Origin: Bombella sp. ESL0385
Lineage (GTDB): Bacteria; Pseudomonadota; Alphaproteobacteria; Acetobacterales; Acetobacteraceae
NCBI RefSeq assembly: GCF_009725755.1
Contig: NZ_WNIJ01000001.1
Span: 558,001 to 622,000 of the forward strand
DNA length: 64,000 nucleotides
Direction of reading: 5' to 3'
Shown here piece after piece: positions 11,370 through 19,708 of the stretch; within the stretch, counting starts at the first letter, position 1, and every line of letters begins with the position of its first letter. Position numbers and translations under genes: made by a program. The notes under the pieces were generated by a model, which saw only the letters and a program-made list of their open reading frames with translations, was not told where the DNA came from and searched no databases.

Positions 11370-13262
11370 ATGAACAACATTGGCCGTAATGTTGCGATTT
11401 GGGTGGTCATCGTTTTGGCAGCCATTGGTGTGCTGGCAGCATTCCAGCCCGGTAGTCATCAGGTGACTCAAAAAATTGCTTATTCCGATTTTGTGCATGA
11501 CGTGGAAGGCCATGAGGTGCGCTCGGTGACCATTCAGGACCAGAATATTTCTGGTGTGCTGACGAATGGGACAGCCTTTGAGACATACGCCCCAGAGGAC
11601 CCGATGCTCGTCCCGCGTCTTACCTCTGCTGGTGTGCAGGTGACGGCTCATCCATCGCAGAGTGATGATAATTCGGGCTGGCGTTATATCATGGCGTATC
11701 TGCCGATTCTGCTTTTGCTCGGCTTAGGCTTCATGTTGTTCCGTCAGATGCAAAATGGCGGTGCCGGTGGGCGTGGGGCGATGAGTTTTGGTAAATCGCG
11801 CGCTAAGATGATGGTCGAGAAAAAGGGCCGTGTGACTTTTGCCGATGTTGCTGGGATTGAAGAAGCTAAAGAGGAACTGGTCGAGATTGTCGACTTCCTA
11901 AAGGACCCGCATAAATATACCCGGCTGGGGGGGAAGATTCCCAAAGGGGTGTTGTTGGTTGGTCCGCCCGGTACCGGTAAGACCTTGCTCGCCCGCGCCG
12001 TTGCGGGGGAGGCGAATGTGCCTTTCTTCAGCATTTCCGGCTCTGATTTTGTGGAGATGTTTGTCGGTGTTGGGGCATCGCGTGTGCGCGATATGTTCGA
12101 GCAAGGGAAGAAGAACGCCCCCTGCATTATCTTTATTGATGAGATTGACGCAGTTGGCCGCCATCGTGGCGCAGGCATGGGCGGCGGTAATGATGAGCGT
12201 GAGCAGACGCTTAATCAAATGCTCGTGGAGATGGATGGGTTTGATAGTAATGAGGGCGTTATCCTGATTGCTGCGACTAACCGCCCTGATGTTTTGGATT
12301 CTGCTCTGCTGCGTCCCGGTCGTTTTGACCGCCAAGTGGTTGTGTCGAACCCGGATGTGAGAGGGCGTGAGAAGATTCTTCAAGTCCATATGAAGAAGTT
12401 GCCGCTCTCCTCTGATGTGAATCCAAAAGTGATTGCGCGTGGGACCGTTGGCTTCTCTGGTGCGGAGCTGGCTAACCTTGTAAATGAGGCGGCGTTATTT
12501 GCGGCACGTTTGGGCTTGCGGACAGTAAGCATGGCGCAATTTGATGAAGCGCATGATAAGGTACGGATGGGCGCAGAACGCCGCTCTGCCGTTATTGAGG
12601 AAGAAGAGAAGAAGATGACCGCCTATCATGAGGCGGCACACGCTTTGGCGAGTTATTATAGCCCGAGTGCTGACCCAATGCATAAAGCAACGATCATTCC
12701 GCGTGGGCAAGCTTTGGGGATGGTGCAGTCCTTGCCGGAGAAAGATAATCTTGCCTACCGGCGGCAATGGTGCCTCTCTAGGATTGTGATTTGTATGGGA
12801 GGTCGCGTTGGTGAGGAGGTTATCTTTGGGCATGATGAGGTAAGTGCCGGGGCGGCTGGTGATATTCAGTCGGCAACAGGCATTGCTCGGCAGATGGTCA
12901 CACGATGGGGTATGAGCGATAAGCTGGGCATGATGGACTATGCTGATCAGGATACACTCTCTGGCATCACAGCACGGGAGGTGGATCAGGAGGTCCGCAA
13001 AATTCTGGATGAGGCCTATGCCACATGCCGCCATATCATTCTGACCCATATGGAGGCGTTTCACCGTGTTGCGCAGGCCTTGTTGGAGTATGAAACTCTA
13101 ACAGGTGAGGAGATTGGTCGTCTCATCCGTGGGGAGCCTTTAGGCCGTACTGATGAGGAGAATCAGTCCTTCCATGGGCGTAGGCCTTCTGTGCCCTCAT
13201 TTATTCAAGGGGTGAGTGCTTCTGTTGGGGATGATGGGCCGGTAGCTCCACAACCGGCTTAA
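11370..13262 (+). CDS. ftsH: FtsH membrane-anchored AAA+ zinc protease
   Basis: FtsH degrades misfolded membrane proteins and regulators. The 630-residue protein has a first membrane helix (residues 8–25), a periplasmic domain, and a second helix (about 108–125). The AAA+ module has Walker A GPPGTGKT at 198–205, Walker B IIFIDEID at 253–260 and the second region of homology [19 protein letters not shown]. The zinc site is HEAAH at 420–424, where most FtsH proteins have HEAGH; the HExxH ligands are intact. The third ligand is expected near [12 protein letters not shown]. The C-terminal tail is Pro/Gly-rich. Confidence 0.96.
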
Positions 13263-13291
13263 CGATTCCTTTTAAAAAAGAGGGTTAAGAG

Positions 13292-13325
13292 CAGGCGTAT
13301 GGCGGAGGTCATGCGCCTGTTTTGT
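13292..13325 (+). terminator. Probable terminator after ftsH
   Basis: Inverted repeat CAGGCGTATG / CATGCGCCTG (10 bp with one G-U pair) followed by TTTTGTT, about 30 bases after the ftsH stop. It separates ftsH from glmM. Confidence 0.75.
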
Positions 13326-13404
13326 TAGGGGAAGGCCTTGCGTCCTAAAAGGGAGGCTGGCATCACAGCGGCGATGGGTGTTTTAGTCGATAAAGGGGAA
13401 GGGC

Positions 13405-14775
13405 ATGGCAGGTAAACGGACGTTTTTCGGCACGGATGGTATTCGCGGTACGGCGAATATGGCCCCCATGACGGTAGATATCGCCCAGACCCTAGGCCAA
13501 GCGGCTGGCTTGTATTTTTGCCGCCAGAGTGAGACAGGCCGCCAACATCGCCATACGATTATTGTGGGGAAGGATACGCGTCTTTCTGGCTATATGATCG
13601 AATGTGCTTTGGTCTCTGGCTTTTTATCTGCCGGGGTGGATGTCGTGCTGTTAGGGCCTTTACCTACGCCAGCCGTTGCGTTTTTAACGCGGTCTTTGCG
13701 AGCGGATTTAGGCGTGATGATTTCTGCCTCGCATAACCCGTTTACGGATAATGGCATTAAACTTTTTGGCCCTGATGGCTTTAAGCTCTCCGATGCTGTC
13801 GAGGCAGAGATTGAAGCTCTGATGGCGGAGGATTTAAGTGGGCAGCTCGCCTCTCCTGCGGCGATTGGTCGTGCCTCTCGGCTGAATGACGCCGCAGGGC
13901 GTTATATTGAGAGTGTGAAATCATCCTTCCCCCGTGGGCTACGGTTGGATGGGTTGAAGATTATTTTGGATTGCGCTCATGGCTCAGCTTATCGTGTGGC
14001 TCCGGTCGCTTTGTGGGAGTTGGGGGCAGAGGTCATTACTTTGGGGGCTTCCCCTGATGGGCTGAATATTAATGATGGTGTTGGCTCCACCCATCCAGAA
14101 GCCCTATGTGCTGCGGTGCGTGAGCATAAGGCTGATTGCGGTATTGCGTTGGATGGTGATGCAGACCGCGTGTTGATTGTAAATGAGCGCGGCGAGATAG
14201 TGGACGGAGACCAGATTTTGGCTCTGATTGCGACCTTATGGCAGCGGTTAGGCTGCTTAAAAGGGACTGAAATTGTCGCAACAGTGATGTCCAATATGGG
14301 GCTAGAGGCTTACCTTGCCACGCAAGGTTTAAGCTTATACCGCACGGCGGTGGGGGACCGTTATGTTGTGGAGCGGATGCGTCAAACAGGGGGGAATCTA
14401 GGGGGGGAGCAGTCTGGCCATATGGTGTTGTCTGATTATGCGACAACGGGCGATGGGCTGTTAGCGGCCTTGCAAGTGCTGGCGGCGTTGGTCGAGACGG
14501 GTAAAAAAGCGAGTGAACTTTGTCAGTTATTTACCCCTTATCCGCAGCGTTTACAGAATGTGCCGTATCAGGAGGTGAACCCGATGACGCATCCTGATTT
14601 AAAAGAGATTGTGCAATGGGCGGAGGAGCAGCTTGCTGGAAAGGGGCGGCTTCTTTTGCGGGCGAGTGGGACAGAGCCTTTAATTCGCGTTATGGTCGAG
14701 GCGCAGGATAAGGCGTTGGTTGATATGGTTGTAGAGCGTGTAAGTGCGTATATTCGTACATTAACAACAGCTTAG
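13405..14775 (+). CDS. glmM: GlmM phosphoglucosamine mutase
   Basis: GlmM turns glucosamine-6-phosphate into glucosamine-1-phosphate for UDP-GlcNAc, feeding peptidoglycan and LPS. The 456-residue protein begins with FGTDGIRG and has the phosphoserine loop MISASHNPF (active Ser near residue 110). It also has the metal-binding DGDADR loop, the sugar loop GGEQSGH and the phosphate-binding [14 protein letters not shown] near the end. Length and motif order are those of the family. The order ftsH then glmM is common in Proteobacteria. Confidence 0.97.
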
Positions 14776-14786
14776 GGTAAAAAAGA

Positions 14787-14818
14787 GGGGACATTCTGTA
14801 ACAAGAATGTCCCCCCTT
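14787..14818. terminator. Bidirectional terminator between glmM and ctrA homologue
   Basis: A perfect 10-bp stem (GGGGACATTC / GAATGTCCCC) with an 8-base loop lies between two convergent genes. On the minus strand the stem is followed by a T-rich run (the plus strand reads GGTAAAAAAGA before it), so it serves the minus-strand gene best; on the plus strand only CCTT follows. Confidence 0.8.
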
Positions 14819-14843
14819 GGGAGTAGTGAAGCGTCAAGGCTGG

Positions 14844-15608
14844 TTAGCCAGCATGACAGAGGTCAGCGACATTATTGCTATGGCCCACTGTTTGCGGTGC
14901 CGTAGCTGTGAGGGTTGGTGTTGGGGTGGCTGTTGTTGTGGGGTCTTGCAGAATATACCCACGGCCCCAGACAGTGATAATCATATGGCCCACACCAAAC
15001 CGCTGTAATTTACGGCGGAGCTTGCAAATAAAGACATCAATAATCTTCATTTCTGGCTCATCAATGCCGCCATAAAGATGGTTTAGGAACATATCTTTAG
15101 TAAGCACAGCCCCTTTACGGAGGAGGAGAAGCTCTAAGATGGAGTATTCCTTGCTGGTAAGGTTGAGGAATTGGCCATTCACACTTACCATACGTCCCTC
15201 AAGGTCAAGCTCCAGCGGCCCAGCGGTGAGGCGTGGCTCTGGCACCCCATAGGCACGGCGTGTTAAAGCTTGGATGCGCGCTTGGGTCTCGCTCATATCA
15301 AAAGGCTTGGTGACGTAGTCATCTGCCCCAGCAGAGAAAGCGGCAACCTTCGTTTTAGCATCTGCATGGGATGAGAGAACCATGATGGGGGTCGTCAGCC
15401 GGGACCGCCGCAACTGGCGAATCAATTCCTCACCGGACTGGTCTGGTAAGTCCAAAGCGGTGATGAAAAGATCGTATTGGTAATGTTTGAACATGTCGAG
15501 AGCTTCATTAGCTGATTTGACATGCTCAACCTGATAAGAGAACCGTTCCAGCACGGTAATGAGCTGTTCTACAGCGATGCTGTCACTTTCAGCGATAAGA
15601 ATACGCAT
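14844..15608 (-). CDS. ctrA: CtrA-family response regulator lacking the phospho-acceptor aspartate
   Basis: CtrA is the alphaproteobacterial cell-cycle/motility master regulator. This 254-residue protein has an N-terminal receiver domain and an OmpR-type winged-helix domain very close to CtrA: LTSKEYSILELLLLRKG, then FLNHLYGG, KIIDVFICKLRRKL and VWGRGYILQDP. In the receiver, the segment DLFITALDLPDQSG places Ala at residue 51, where Caulobacter CtrA has the phosphorylated Asp51. The acidic pocket reads ESD rather than EDD, while the conserved Ser and Lys (VLSSHAD, VTKPF) remain. A Thr/Pro-rich tail of about 30 residues follows the DNA-binding domain. This suggests phosphorylation-independent control, unless Asp53 substitutes. 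Confidence 0.9.
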   Translation of the reverse strand: MRILIAESDSIAVEQLITVLERFSYQVEHVKSANEALDMFKHYQYDLFITALDLPDQSGEELIRQLRRSRLTTPIMVLSSHADAKTKVAAFSAGADDYVTKPFDMSETQARIQALTRRAYGVPEPRLTAGPLELDLEGRMVSVNGQFLNLTSKEYSILELLLLRKGAVLTKDMFLNHLYGGIDEPEMKIIDVFICKLRRKLQRFGVGHMIITVWGRGYILQDPTTTATPTPTLTATAPQTVGHSNNVADLCHAG

Positions 15609-16089
15609 AATTCAAACTCCCTTAGACTGGTTGTAGTATGGGGAGTTTATTGCCAATAATGCAACCCTAGATTGTTTAATGGGGGTATCACACAACTAAA
15701 AGTATAGGTTTTACGAAAGCTTGTTGCTAGCTCATTTCGAGCAAAAGTGATGTTCAATCACGATAATTTTACATTTTCCCCTAAAGTAAGGGGAAAGTAT
15801 CTTCAACAGTTATTTAAACCTTAAATGATGTATATCGGATATAAATTTTTTTGTATCTGTTTTAAATCAAATATTTAACATTCATTAATAAAAGAATTAT
15901 CTAATTTAATTTTTAAATTAACGTAAAATTATTATATCGTGAACATAATTAACGGGTATGCTTATTATTTTGTGTCTATTTATTGGATTTTTCAATTACT
16001 TGTAAGTCAATTTAATGCCATCTTTTCGCCATAAATAGCCCATTATCAGGGGAGTGAATGAAGACGAATCGCATTTTCGTGAAGTCGCT
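15609..16089. other. AT-rich intergenic region upstream of the ctrA homologue
   Basis: About 480 bases with no convincing gene. The stretch is far richer in A+T than its surroundings and holds about ten TTAA tetramers between 15,810 and 16,015, the half-site of the CtrA box (TTAA-N7-TTAA), though I did not find an exact N7 pair. It must hold the ctrA promoter and the 3' end of the minus-strand unit ending at 16090. The plus-strand frame at 16054–16323 is a shadow of that gene. Confidence 0.6.
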
Positions 16090-16533
16090 TTAAGCCTGCC
16101 CGACATTATTATGCGTTATCGCCAATATATGAGTGATGTGTTCGACCGTTCCAATCAAGGCGCAGGCAACGGGATGGGTTTTATCAGCAACAAAGACAAG
16201 GCGTGTCTGGGCGGAGCTTGGGAAAAGGTCCGTCTGGAGGGTAAAGACGGTGGCGTCCTCTTTATGTTGTTGCTCGGCCTCTTTGGCGGCTTCACTGAGG
16301 AGGCGAGCGCAAATACGCTCTAAGGCAGGGAGGAGGCGCGCTGCAATCTGCGCCTCTGTTTCCTCTGGCGTGGTTTTATGGTGCGCTATTAGCTCCTCCC
16401 ACCCTGCGCGGGTGAGAAAGCAGGGGATGCTCCCTTCTGGCGTCTCTCGCTCAGCACGGAGGATGAGACCGTTTTGAGCGAGGGAGAGGACATCCAACTT
16501 AGGCAGATGGGCAGGGTCGAGCGTAATGGCCAT
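16090..16533 (-). CDS. Conserved-looking protein of unknown function
   Basis: A 147-residue soluble protein that I do not recognise. It has no signal peptide or membrane segment. The N-terminal half looks like a small alpha/beta domain (LPKLDVLSLAQNGLIL, then FLTRAGWEELIAHH). The middle is a charged helix (about residues 55–95), and the end is hydrophobic (CALIGTVEHITHILAITHN). It starts 21 bases after the M29 aminopeptidase stop on the same strand and is probably the last gene of the ankyrin–hisC–aminopeptidase unit. Chosen over the opposite frame because of operon placement and a purine-rich AGGAT site upstream of its ATG. Confidence 0.7.
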   Translation of the reverse strand: MAITLDPAHLPKLDVLSLAQNGLILRAERETPEGSIPCFLTRAGWEELIAHHKTTPEETEAQIAARLLPALERICARLLSEAAKEAEQQHKEDATVFTLQTDLFPSSAQTRLVFVADKTHPVACALIGTVEHITHILAITHNNVGQA

Positions 16534-16554
16534 GGGCGTTTATCCTGCTTGACG

Positions 16555-17799
16555 TTACACCCATTCCCCTGCACGCATGAGAGGAACGCGCTGGCCGTCT
16601 TTCACACCATCAATATCAATCTCGCCAGAGCCAATCATCCAATCAATATGAATCATGGAATGATTGGCCCCACGGGCGATGAGCTCATCTTCGCTCAAGC
16701 CTTCAGGGTCGATCATACATTTTGTGTAGGCTTGGCCGAGGGCTATATGGCACGCGGCATTTTCATCAAAAAGGGTGTTTTGGTAGAGAATACCGCTTTG
16801 GGAAATTGGTGAGGAATGAGGTACAAGGGCCACCTCCCCAATACGGCGCGCGCCTTCATCACTCTCCAAAATCCGTTGGAGGACATCTTCGCCCTTTTGA
16901 GCATGGGCCTCCACGATGCGGCCTTTCTCAAACCGGACCTGAATCCCATCAATGAGGGACCCTTGATGAAACAGCGGCTTCGTGCTGGAGACGGTACCTT
17001 CTACCCGCGCACAATGGGGAGTCGTAAAGACTTCCTCCGTTGGGATATTGGGGTTGCAGACCACACCATTGCCCGCAGCTTCTGCCCCACCTGTCCAGAG
17101 GTGCCCATCTGCGAGGCCAACGGTAAGGTCCGTCCCCGGCCCGGTGAAGTGCAAGGCATCGAACCGAGCATCATTGAGCATAGCCGCGCGGGCATGGAGG
17201 GTTTTATTATGCTCTGCCCAAGCCGCTACAGGGTCTGCAACATCCACGCGGGAGGCATGGAAGATGCCTTTCCATAAGGCAGCGAGGGCTTCATCCTCTG
17301 GGAGATGGGGGAAGACCTGCTGCGCCCAAGCGGGGGTAGCACAGGCGATGATGTTCCAATTAATATCAAAGCTTGTGATAAGCTCCATCGCGGGGCGATG
17401 AGCAGCGGAGCTTGCCCGGCTCGCACGGGAGATATGCTCGGGGTTTTGCCCCTTTAGAAGGGTGGGGTTGCCCCCGGTGATGGCCATGCGGGCTGCGCCA
17501 TTGCGGAAGGCTTCAGCCATGCCATTGGCCAGCCAGCCCGCAGCTGTATCAAAGCTCTCCTCACGGGCGTGGTGGAAACGGGCCAGAGTGGTTTCATCAT
17601 CCTGATACAGCGTTGTGACGAGTGAGGCCCCTGCTTTATAGGCATGGGTGGTGATGCGCCGGATAAGCGGGACGGCTTCCAGCCCTGCGGTAATAACAAG
17701 CTGCTGGCCGGGTGTAATATTTAACCCCGTGCGGACGGCAACTTCTGCTAGACGGTCTAAAAGCTGGTCATGGGTGAAAGAAGATGTAGGCATCGTCAT
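16555..17799 (-). CDS. M29-family (AmpS/PepS-type) metallo-aminopeptidase
   Basis: A cytosolic aminopeptidase of family M29, which removes N-terminal residues using a two-metal centre. The visible signatures are the RVEGTVSSTKPL segment (ligand Glu), the SQSGILYQNTLFDENAACHIALG block (Glu and His), and ANHSMIHIDWMIGS, whose His-x3-His-x-Asp supplies the remaining ligands. The frame stays open into hisC, but an ATG at 17799 with an AAGGAT site upstream gives a standard 414-residue enzyme starting MTMPTSSFTHDQLLDRLA. ATG 17793 is an alternative. It lies 31 bases downstream of hisC on the same strand. Confidence 0.9.
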   Translation of the reverse strand: MTMPTSSFTHDQLLDRLAEVAVRTGLNITPGQQLVITAGLEAVPLIRRITTHAYKAGASLVTTLYQDDETTLARFHHAREESFDTAAGWLANGMAEAFRNGAARMAITGGNPTLLKGQNPEHISRASRASSAAHRPAMELITSFDINWNIIACATPAWAQQVFPHLPEDEALAALWKGIFHASRVDVADPVAAWAEHNKTLHARAAMLNDARFDALHFTGPGTDLTVGLADGHLWTGGAEAAGNGVVCNPNIPTEEVFTTPHCARVEGTVSSTKPLFHQGSLIDGIQVRFEKGRIVEAHAQKGEDVLQRILESDEGARRIGEVALVPHSSPISQSGILYQNTLFDENAACHIALGQAYTKCMIDPEGLSEDELIARGANHSMIHIDWMIGSGEIDIDGVKDGQRVPLMRAGEWV

Positions 17800-17830
17800 A
17801 TAATCCTTTGGAGGAGCTGCATGGGGGCGT

Positions 17831-18895
17831 TTAGCGGGGGAGTATGTCATCAAGGGCGGTGAGGAGGCTATCCATCTCCTCATCTGTGCCGATGGTGATG
17901 CGTAACCAATCGCTGATGCGTGGGCTATCACCTTGATGGCGGACAATGATGGCGCGTTCCCGCAAGGCGGTGAAGATATGCGCCGCAGAGCAAGAGGGAT
18001 GATGGACTAAAATAAAATTAGCCGTGGAGGGGAGGACTTCCATCCCACGCTTCTGCAAAGCCGTGATAATGCGCTCGCGTGTGGCGATGATGCGGGCTGT
18101 TGTTTGTTTAAGCCATGCCTCATCACGGATGGAGGCTTCCGCCCCTACTTGGGCAGGGCGGGAGAGAGGGTAGGAGTTGAAGCTATCCTTCACGCGTGTC
18201 AGCCCTTCAATTAAGGGGGGCGAGCCAATGGCGTATCCTACGCGCAGCCCTGCTAATCCTGATGATTTGGAGAAGGTGCGAATGACAAGAAGATTGGGAT
18301 AGCGGTCGATTAAGCTGATAGCACTCTCCCCACCGAAATCCACATAGGCTTCATCAATCACCACAACCTGTTCCGAGACGCGTTGGAGAAGTGATTCAAT
18401 GGCCGGTAAAGGCAGGCTGATGCCTGTATTGGCATTAGGGTTAGCAATGATGATGCCCCCCGTAGGCCCTTCATAATCTTCTGGCGCGATGGTGAAATCA
18501 TCGCGTAACGGGATGGTGCGGTATGTTAGCCCAAATAATTGGCAATAGATGGGGTAGAAGCCATATGTCACATCGCTGAAGAGGACAGGGGCATCATCTC
18601 GGAATAAGGCGCGGAATGTGTGAGCGAGGACCTCATCAGACCCATTGCCGACAAAAACACACTCAACGGGGACATTTGCTTGTGCGGCAATGGCTGTACG
18701 CAGGGCTAGGGCGGTAGGGTCTGGGTACAAGCGCAGCGTGTCATCAGCACTGGCTTTGATAGCCTCTAGCGCGCGCGGAGAAGGGCCGTAGGGGGATTCG
18801 TTGGTATTGAGCTTAACCAGCTTTGCCATGCGTGGCTGCTCGCCGGGGATATAGGGCTTGAGGGTATGGACCCGTTGGTTCCAAAAGCGGCTCAT
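17831..18895 (-). CDS. hisC: HisC histidinol-phosphate aminotransferase
   Basis: A PLP-dependent class I/II aminotransferase for histidine synthesis; homologues in this group can also transaminate aromatic amino acids. The 354-residue protein has LNTNESPYGPSPRALEAI, the GNGSDE phosphate-binding loop, ANPNANTG, DEAYVDFGG and the PLP lysine in RTFSKSSGLAGLRVGYAIG. The final TIGTDEEMDSLLTAL is the family's C-terminal signature. Its ATG overlaps the stop of the upstream ankyrin gene by four bases, so the two are translationally coupled. No other his genes are visible here. Confidence 0.93.
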   Translation of the reverse strand: MSRFWNQRVHTLKPYIPGEQPRMAKLVKLNTNESPYGPSPRALEAIKASADDTLRLYPDPTALALRTAIAAQANVPVECVFVGNGSDEVLAHTFRALFRDDAPVLFSDVTYGFYPIYCQLFGLTYRTIPLRDDFTIAPEDYEGPTGGIIIANPNANTGISLPLPAIESLLQRVSEQVVVIDEAYVDFGGESAISLIDRYPNLLVIRTFSKSSGLAGLRVGYAIGSPPLIEGLTRVKDSFNSYPLSRPAQVGAEASIRDEAWLKQTTARIIATRERIITALQKRGMEVLPSTANFILVHHPSCSAAHIFTALRERAIIVRHQGDSPRISDWLRITIGTDEEMDSLLTALDDILPR

Positions 18896-19398
18896 GGGTG
18901 TGTTGCCTTTGCTTCAAAGAGGCTGCCAAGACCTTGACGATGGGCAAGGTCGCGTGCGGAGAGGCCCTCAGCATCGCGGAGGTCTGGGTTGGCCCCATGG
19001 TTTAGCAAGAAGCGCGCCATTGCTTGCCGCCCAAACATGATGGCGAACATAAGAGGTGTCCGCCCTGCATGATTAGGATGGTCCACTTTCGCCCCATGCT
19101 CTAAGAGGAGGCGGGCAATGGGTTCAAAGCCTTTAAAGGCCACACCGGAGAGAGCAGTTGCCCCTTTTGCATCCACGCCATTAGGGTCGGCCCCGCGCTC
19201 TAGCAGCAAACGCGCGGTATCGAGCTGCTCATTATAGGTTGCGACAATGAGGGGCGTATAACCTTGGTTGTTGGTGCAATCTGCGGGCATCCCAGCGTCC
19301 AGAAATTGCGTAACAAGGTCAGTCTCCCCATTACGGGCAGCATCAATAAAGAGCGTGGTAATTTGCTCTGGGGTGAAGGACATAGTGGGTTGGGACAT
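18892..19398 (-). CDS. Ankyrin-repeat protein
   Basis: A 168-residue protein made largely of ankyrin repeats. About four can be read, for example GYTPLIVATYNEQLDTARLL, then GATALSGVAFKGFEPIARLL, GRTPLMFAIMFGRQAMARFL and a final degenerate copy. No signal peptide is seen, so it is probably a cytosolic protein-binding module; its partner is unknown. It is the first gene of a minus-strand group with hisC and the M29 peptidase, and overlaps hisC by ATGA. An alternative start is the ATG at 19383. Confidence 0.85.
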   Translation of the reverse strand: MSQPTMSFTPEQITTLFIDAARNGETDLVTQFLDAGMPADCTNNQGYTPLIVATYNEQLDTARLLLERGADPNGVDAKGATALSGVAFKGFEPIARLLLEHGAKVDHPNHAGRTPLMFAIMFGRQAMARFLLNHGANPDLRDAEGLSARDLAHRQGLGSLFEAKATHP

Positions 19399-19708
19399 GG
19401 GCAGGGTGCTTTTTAAAAAAGGAGAACAGACTGATTAACAAGTATATCTACTCTCTTGCGTGTGAGCGGTAAGGTCAAGAGGGGGAGACGGTGCGGCAGG
19501 CATGTGCAGGGAGGGGCGATAATGGTCACTCTGCCGTTATGAGGATGAAATTATAGGGAAAATTAACCTTATTTGCGTGTTAGGCATTGCGTTCTTTTGC
19601 CGTATAAGGCCAGTTGTAGAATGTCTGGACTGTCATTGGGCTGTGTTAAGGGGCACAGGGCTGATGGCAGGCGACCGGACGATGTTTTGACTTAAGGACG
19701 TTAGATCA
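19399..19708. other. Divergent intergenic region between the ankyrin gene and tkt
   Basis: About 310 bases separating a minus-strand and a plus-strand operon, so it should contain two divergent promoters. I could not pick convincing -35/-10 pairs by eye. It contains no supported gene or RNA. Confidence 0.5.

Follow-up and report, generated by a model that had tools for sequence, protein, structure and literature searches.

The window analysed here, a 64,000-nucleotide stretch of the genome (1,899,972 bases, 1.90 Mb, 100% complete) of Bombella sp. ESL0385, an acetic acid bacterium associated with bees, contains a ctrA gene whose product has alanine at residue 51. Phosphorylation-gated control of the cell cycle is classically exemplified by CtrA, whose switch is Asp51. 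The window CtrA is probably a true orthologue with a pseudo-receiver, working independently of phosphorylation, dimerising with itself and having its activity set by its abundance. The replacement of Asp51, the loss of Asp8, the absence of ChpT, and the retention of the DNA-binding domain, the dimer contacts and the predicted receiver fold are all apparent from the sequences, and the coordinates of the features are given in Table 1.

Table 1. Features of the ctrA locus, in window coordinates.
Feature	Position	Strand	Basis or remark
ctrA, 254 aa, ATG start	14844..15608	-	The genome's single CtrA orthologue
Receiver domain, residues 1-118, lacking the phospho-acceptor	15255..15608	-	Gapless alignment to 4qpj_C (E 4.5e-24); predicted (beta-alpha)5 fold
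Codon 51, GCT (Ala), site of the phosphorylated Asp in CtrA	15456..15458	-	Structure alignment and codon reading
Codons 7-9, E-S-D, with Ser in place of Asp8	15582..15590	-	CtrA column comparison
Codon 53, Asp, predicted to be no substitute acceptor	15450..15452	-	Asn opposite in 4qpj_C; Gly in Ala51 relatives
Codon 101, Lys, pocket lysine kept	15306..15308	-	CtrA column comparison
Winged-helix DNA-binding domain, residues 126-223, highly conserved	14940..15233	-	Pfam and alignments of relatives
Conserved block upstream of ctrA, GTTGT ... ACAATCTAGGGTTGCA, possible operator/-35 region	15660..15697	-	Comparison of upstream regions

The assignment to CtrA rests on an orthologous receiver and OmpR-type winged helix (Pfam Response_reg, residues 3-112, and Trans_reg_C, 146-220), on alignment with a CtrA receiver of determined structure, and on its single copy; the top NCBIfam match is a CtrA model (NF045991), at 271.9 bits and thus under its cut-off of 350. 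The alignment with the CtrA receiver of PDB 4qpj_C, which we take to be from Brucella, is gapless over all 118 receiver residues and places an aspartate opposite Ala51. The first-pass annotation of this DNA had described a CtrA homologue with Ala51, encoded by GCT on the minus strand, and an acidic pocket reading ESD instead of EDD, and both descriptions hold (codon 15458..15456; E7-S8-D9). The residue lost from the pocket is Asp8, presumably a Mg2+ ligand in receivers, so that neither the phosphorylatable aspartate nor the complete acidic pocket of CtrA is present, and the protein falls in the class of aspartate-less pseudo-receivers, in which the receiver fold is kept and the phospho-aspartate replaced. 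Ala51 is not a sequencing error, because Bombella saccharophila, Parasaccharibacter apium and B. dulcis encode it by GCG in other assemblies. The genome encodes no further CtrA of canonical type, the next best matches being ordinary response regulators with 33-36% identity; among these other matches (eight in all), five of the six compared (L002-L007) keep the Asp. A second OmpR-type regulator without an acceptor Asp (L004, contig C3 of this genome, 1345-2220, minus strand) adjoins a FliL-like gene near a flagellin match and appears to us to resemble the Rem/FtcR flagellar regulators. No Rfam families were found in window positions 13000-19500.

The phosphorelay that would feed CtrA was sought throughout the family. 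ChpT was searched for with PF10090 in 150 genomes of the family, and a profile of eight Acetobacteraceae ChpTs, which recovered all eight positive controls at E <= 3e-27, was then applied to the 65 apparent negatives. This added three genomes (G109, G027 and G130) to 85 identified by PF10090 (matches in long kinase frames being judged false), giving 88 of 150 with ChpT. The best E among the other profile negatives was 1.8e-9, and nearly all of their matches fell in long kinase frames; the frames matched were at least 362 aa, the one exception being a partial frame of 219 aa in G039 (E 2e-4). Completeness falls below 90% in nine of the 62 genomes scored as negative, which leaves some of these absences uncertain. 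In the window's genome there is no PF10090 match, and the profile found there only a 502-aa histidine kinase (6e-4). The RpoB clade containing this genome (SH-aLRT 98) comprises 34 genomes, and ChpT is absent from all of them.

The window's genome has twelve HATPase matches, of which eight are histidine kinases by Pfam (one being CheA) and four are by eye GyrB, ParE, MutL and HtpG. None of the eight kinases has the CckA architecture, with PAS, kinase and receiver in that order and the receiver C-terminal. NF046020 gave no match at E <= 1e-60 among the five of 13 candidates scored in this genome, and proved unusable as a marker of CckA in the family, paralogues matching in 135/150 genomes at 1e-60 (five candidates scored in each). 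Two histidine kinases, L255 and L261, lie side by side (contig C2 of the window's genome, 33681-35603), and one of them combines a receiver at the N-terminus with a kinase core resembling that of CckA. The core of L261 matches solved CckA, but its receiver is N-terminal and none is C-terminal; because of this order, and because full-length relatives with the same order occur in ChpT-containing genomes beside other kinases, we treat it as a different family and not as a disguised CckA. The earlier suggestion of a CtrA outside phosphorelay control is thus well supported, with ChpT and any CckA-architecture kinase missing along with Asp51 and Asp8. The same suggestion had placed this CtrA in a lineage with reduced motility control and had proposed looking for flagellar genes as well; three flagellin matches and CheA are present, and this part is not borne out as a loss of motility genes.

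Across the family the receiver residues go with ChpT. Asp51 is kept in 77/78 genomes with ChpT and 17/51 without it (Fisher p 2.6e-17, uncorrected for ancestry), and Asp8 and Asp51 together in 76/78 and 8/51 respectively (Fisher p 1.5e-23, likewise uncorrected). These counts come from 131 genomes with a CtrA orthologue; residue 51 is missing in two (G062 and G086), a third (B. dulcis, G032) was counted as non-Asp from a frame-shifted gene that reads Ala, and second CtrA copies (L217-L223) were left out. The other 19 of the 150 (nine with ChpT, ten without) were judged to have no CtrA orthologue and include those with the diverged CtrA-like proteins L229 and L241. An RpoB tree of 90 of the 150 genomes, picked to cover most of those without ChpT, has at least 11 changes of ChpT. 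Eight independent pairs on this tree gave, for Asp8 plus Asp51, averages of 4.6 with the association, 1.0 against and 2.4 showing no difference (sign test p ~0.22), and for Asp51 alone 2.0, 1.0 and 5.0 (p ~1); the CtrA tree yielded four pairs, with p 0.5 and 1 respectively. Shared ancestry therefore accounts for much of the association, and the tree-corrected test is not significant.

In the 34-genome clade 30 CtrAs are readable, 23 of them with Glu51, two with Ala51 and five with Asp51, and Asp8 survives in three. Altered pockets also occur in ChpT-less genomes outside this clade, including G081/G146, G108, G053, G148 and G068/G140/G023/G096. There are exceptions of both kinds: G133 has ChpT yet its CtrA (L139) carries Glu51 with the EDD pocket intact, and G103 has ChpT yet Asn8, while eight genomes have Asp8 and Asp51 yet no ChpT (G099, G013, G030 and G017, 97-100% complete, and the less complete G039, G041, G075 and G087). 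It is safe to say on this comparison that the ancestry of the acetic acid bacteria saw the loss of both ChpT and the pocket, and G013, G030 and similar genomes suggest that the relay may have been lost before the pocket.

Glutamate is the usual residue at position 51 in this group. The 49 named acetic-acid-bacterial loci comprise 44 with Glu51, two with Ala51 and three without a readable residue, so that the readable set (n=46) is Glu apart from the two Ala loci, those of B. saccharophila and P. apium, whose ctrA sequences are identical; B. dulcis, one of the three unreadable loci, has Ala51 in its own frame. All ten named loci outside the group have E7-D8-D51. This count uses 59 of 78 loci, those omitted including L095 (Plastoroseomonas, Gly51) and L096 (Ser51), which we took to be diverged copies. 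Elsewhere in the family Ala51 occurs in G066 and G001. Residue 51 is encoded by GAG or GAA where it is Glu and by GCG where it is Ala in relatives, as compared with GCT in the window; the closest kin have Glu codons, so that Ala replaced Glu, not Asp, inside Bombella. In the RpoB tree B. dulcis pairs with a Glu51 genome (G118, support 92) away from the window's genome, which implies either two Glu-to-Ala changes or one reversal. On this codon and tree reading, Ala51 is a later step in a lineage already Glu51 and ChpT-less, not the event that freed CtrA.

Several CtrAs of the family have changed further. In B. dulcis (L087 / L130), compared with B. mellum, ctrA as assembled carries a frameshift inside the receiver; Ala51 precedes the shift, and the DNA-binding domain is open in another frame than the receiver start. 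Four ChpT-less genomes have CtrA orthologues (L226, L227, L228 and L233) whose receiver pockets are heavily altered, with Arg or Ser in position 51 and Lys101 missing, and two near-complete genomes of the same clade (G029 and G116; 1.9-2.1 Mb) have no CtrA match at E <= 1e-30.

The divergence of the receiver is uneven. Column entropies of all 30 readable CtrAs of the clade were compared with those of 77 CtrAs from ChpT-containing genomes. In the clade the mean is higher by 0.91 bits in the beta1 pocket (1.25 against 0.34), by 1.00 in alpha1 (2.66 against 1.66) and by 0.89 around residue 51 (1.56 against 0.67), while it differs by only 0.16 in the DNA-binding domain (0.90 against 0.74) and by -0.03 at residues 93-98 (0.48 against 0.51). 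In 100 random draws of 30 sequences from the ChpT-containing set the maximum was <= 0.47 in the pocket and <= 0.73 around residue 51. Of the 30 clade CtrAs, 29, 29, 30 and 30 keep K87, E107, D97 and R111 respectively, residues that we take to pair in salt bridges across the dimer as in PhoB (K87-E107 and D97-R111); a third pair (92/113) is missing in the clade and the ChpT-containing group alike. Residue 101 is Lys in 18/30 and Arg in 9/30. AlphaFold2 predicts an ordinary receiver (mean pLDDT 84.6) in which beta3 stops at residue 51; over 118 columns this receiver superimposes on 4qpj_C at 1.2 A. Matches of the full-length model to DNA-bound-like PDB chains (PmrA 4s04_A and CosR 8uvx_B) were discarded as evidence of activity, because a predicted monomer gives no reliable picture of how its domains are arranged.

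Among named Bombella, dN/dS (finite dS only) is 0.05-0.12 for the receiver, 0.056 against P. apium, and 0.005-0.013 for the DNA-binding domain; these are rough values, with several dS above 1 or saturated, but constraint on both halves is plain. The receiver/DNA-binding ratio in pairs from one genus has a median of 0.46 without ChpT (n 13) and 0.27 with it (n 21), a trend at p 0.08. Continuing purifying selection on a receiver predicted to fold normally would also be expected had the receiver been re-purposed, with a protein partner or small ligand on an altered face switching CtrA without phosphate. Partner-controlled pseudo-receivers such as Rem/MirA are described in the available part of PMC12632262, but alpha1 and alpha3, the surfaces that such a partner might use, are the most diverged in the clade, and we regard this alternative as unlikely, though worth keeping in view.

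The region upstream of ctrA is conserved as well. The block ACAATCNNNGGTTGCA, with GTTGT before it, is exact in 12/13 ctrA upstream regions of the Bombella/Saccharibacter group, with one change in B. dulcis, and has one exact match in the whole genome; two near matches elsewhere were set aside as both lie inside open frames. Through this putative operator block the ctrA promoter could set CtrA abundance. Gluconobacter ctrA upstream regions share a common motif of another kind, with GGTAGTAACCAT. CtrA boxes of the form TTAA-N7-TTAA are not enriched, either in the window (17 vs 17.0 expected) or genome-wide (118 vs 101 for a control pattern), and no exact box lies within 500 bp upstream of ctrA in any of 12 regions; these counts therefore lend no support to binding at the known site.

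This lack of box enrichment, the frame-shifted B. dulcis gene and the two clade members without a CtrA match are what might be seen if ctrA were decaying after loss of the relay and on its way out, with Ala51 as one step of the decay. The strong purifying selection on both halves of CtrA in Bombella, and the conservation of the DNA-binding domain and upstream block, argue against this and make it improbable. Phosphorylation of Asp53, or of some other residue, in place of Asp51 is less probable still: Asp53 is only two residues from the lost site and Lys101 is kept, but the gapless 118-residue alignment leaves no compensating indel to move Asp53 to the acceptor site, as the first-pass annotation had considered, an Asn lies opposite it, the Ala51 relatives have Gly53, Asp8 is lost too and there is no ChpT.

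We therefore return to a CtrA that works without phosphate. With ChpT, Asp8 and Asp51 all missing, the window protein is very probably not phosphorylated, and from the selection on its dimer contacts, fold and DNA-binding domain we infer that it is a constitutive dimer whose output tracks its amount. The acetic-acid-bacterial ancestor would have been without ChpT, and with no phosphate input Asp51 and Asp8 would have been free to change. Glu51, in most of the lineage, may imitate the phosphorylated state; in part of Bombella it would then have given way to Ala, the mimic being no longer required, and the presence of Ala51 there implies that the mimic is dispensable. Because alanine, unlike glutamate, is not a phosphate mimic, constitutive activity can only be inferred for the Ala51 form. 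The receiver would dimerise through alpha4-beta5-alpha5 without phosphate and so position a pair of DNA-binding domains at their sites; CtrA activity would be set by synthesis and degradation.

A bolder form of this proposal, which we put forward tentatively at somewhat less than even odds, is that the group has replayed the D51E and D51A mutations in nature. Loss of ChpT, with a group-wide Glu mimic and loss of the Mg2+ pocket, would have made CtrA kinase-free, and Bombella would then have gone to Ala, repeatedly or with reversal, its receiver being a constitutive dimeriser. If so, the family spans an intact relay, a lost relay with an intact receiver, the mimic, Ala, a receiver frame-shifted or changed beyond recognition, and complete absence of CtrA. 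If this industrial and insect-associated group runs CtrA without its switch, comparison can reveal what phosphorylation contributed, and it can be asked how a master regulator persists once its relay has gone and which genes stay under its control. Because the site is Asp, Glu or Ala depending on the species, such questions can be put to the test in Gluconobacter and other tractable hosts.

The poor phosphorelay of the Rhodospirillales and the aspartate-less receivers as a class are already in print. Brilli 2010 did not find chpT in part of the Rhodospirillales and reported Granulibacter to lack ctrA (PMC2877005), and chpT, cckA and divL were reported in 27-36% of Rhodospirillales genomes, with the caution that ChpT may merely be hard to detect (PMC8116508); the receiver is not addressed in the portions of these two papers available to us. 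A search of the open-access literature, with most subscription papers outside its scope, found nothing on CtrA position 51 in acetic acid bacteria.

The window protein resembles canonical CtrA in its orthologous receiver and winged helix, with the receiver gapless to 4qpj_C and the DNA-binding domain conserved, and differs in lacking Asp51, Asp8, ChpT, a CckA-architecture kinase and TTAA-N7-TTAA enrichment. With the aspartate-less OmpR/PhoB receivers ChxR, HP1043, CosR and RitR it shares loss of the acceptor, retention of the first acidic residue with loss of the second, and retention of the fold and alpha4-beta5-alpha5. According to the available excerpts, Glu is the commonest replacement in such receivers (26%, with Ala at 9%) and Asp-to-Glu by itself is often insufficient as a mimic (PMC4395418), and ChxR and HP1043 are dimers without phosphate (PMC12632262); CtrA has no occurrence in either paper. 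It differs from these proteins in being a cell-cycle regulator normally under phosphorelay control and altered group-wide, with a dimer predicted from sequence, and in having many intact orthologues and a missing relay protein with which to make comparisons. The closest parallel at the residue itself is with laboratory alleles, ctrA(D51E) having been used as an active or phosphomimetic form in Caulobacter and D51A and D51E in Rhodobacter capsulatus (PMC5189948 and PMC6363796, in the parts available). The residue and the two replacements are the same, but in the lineage of the window the changes are natural, fixed in species, and accompanied by loss of Asp8 and ChpT.
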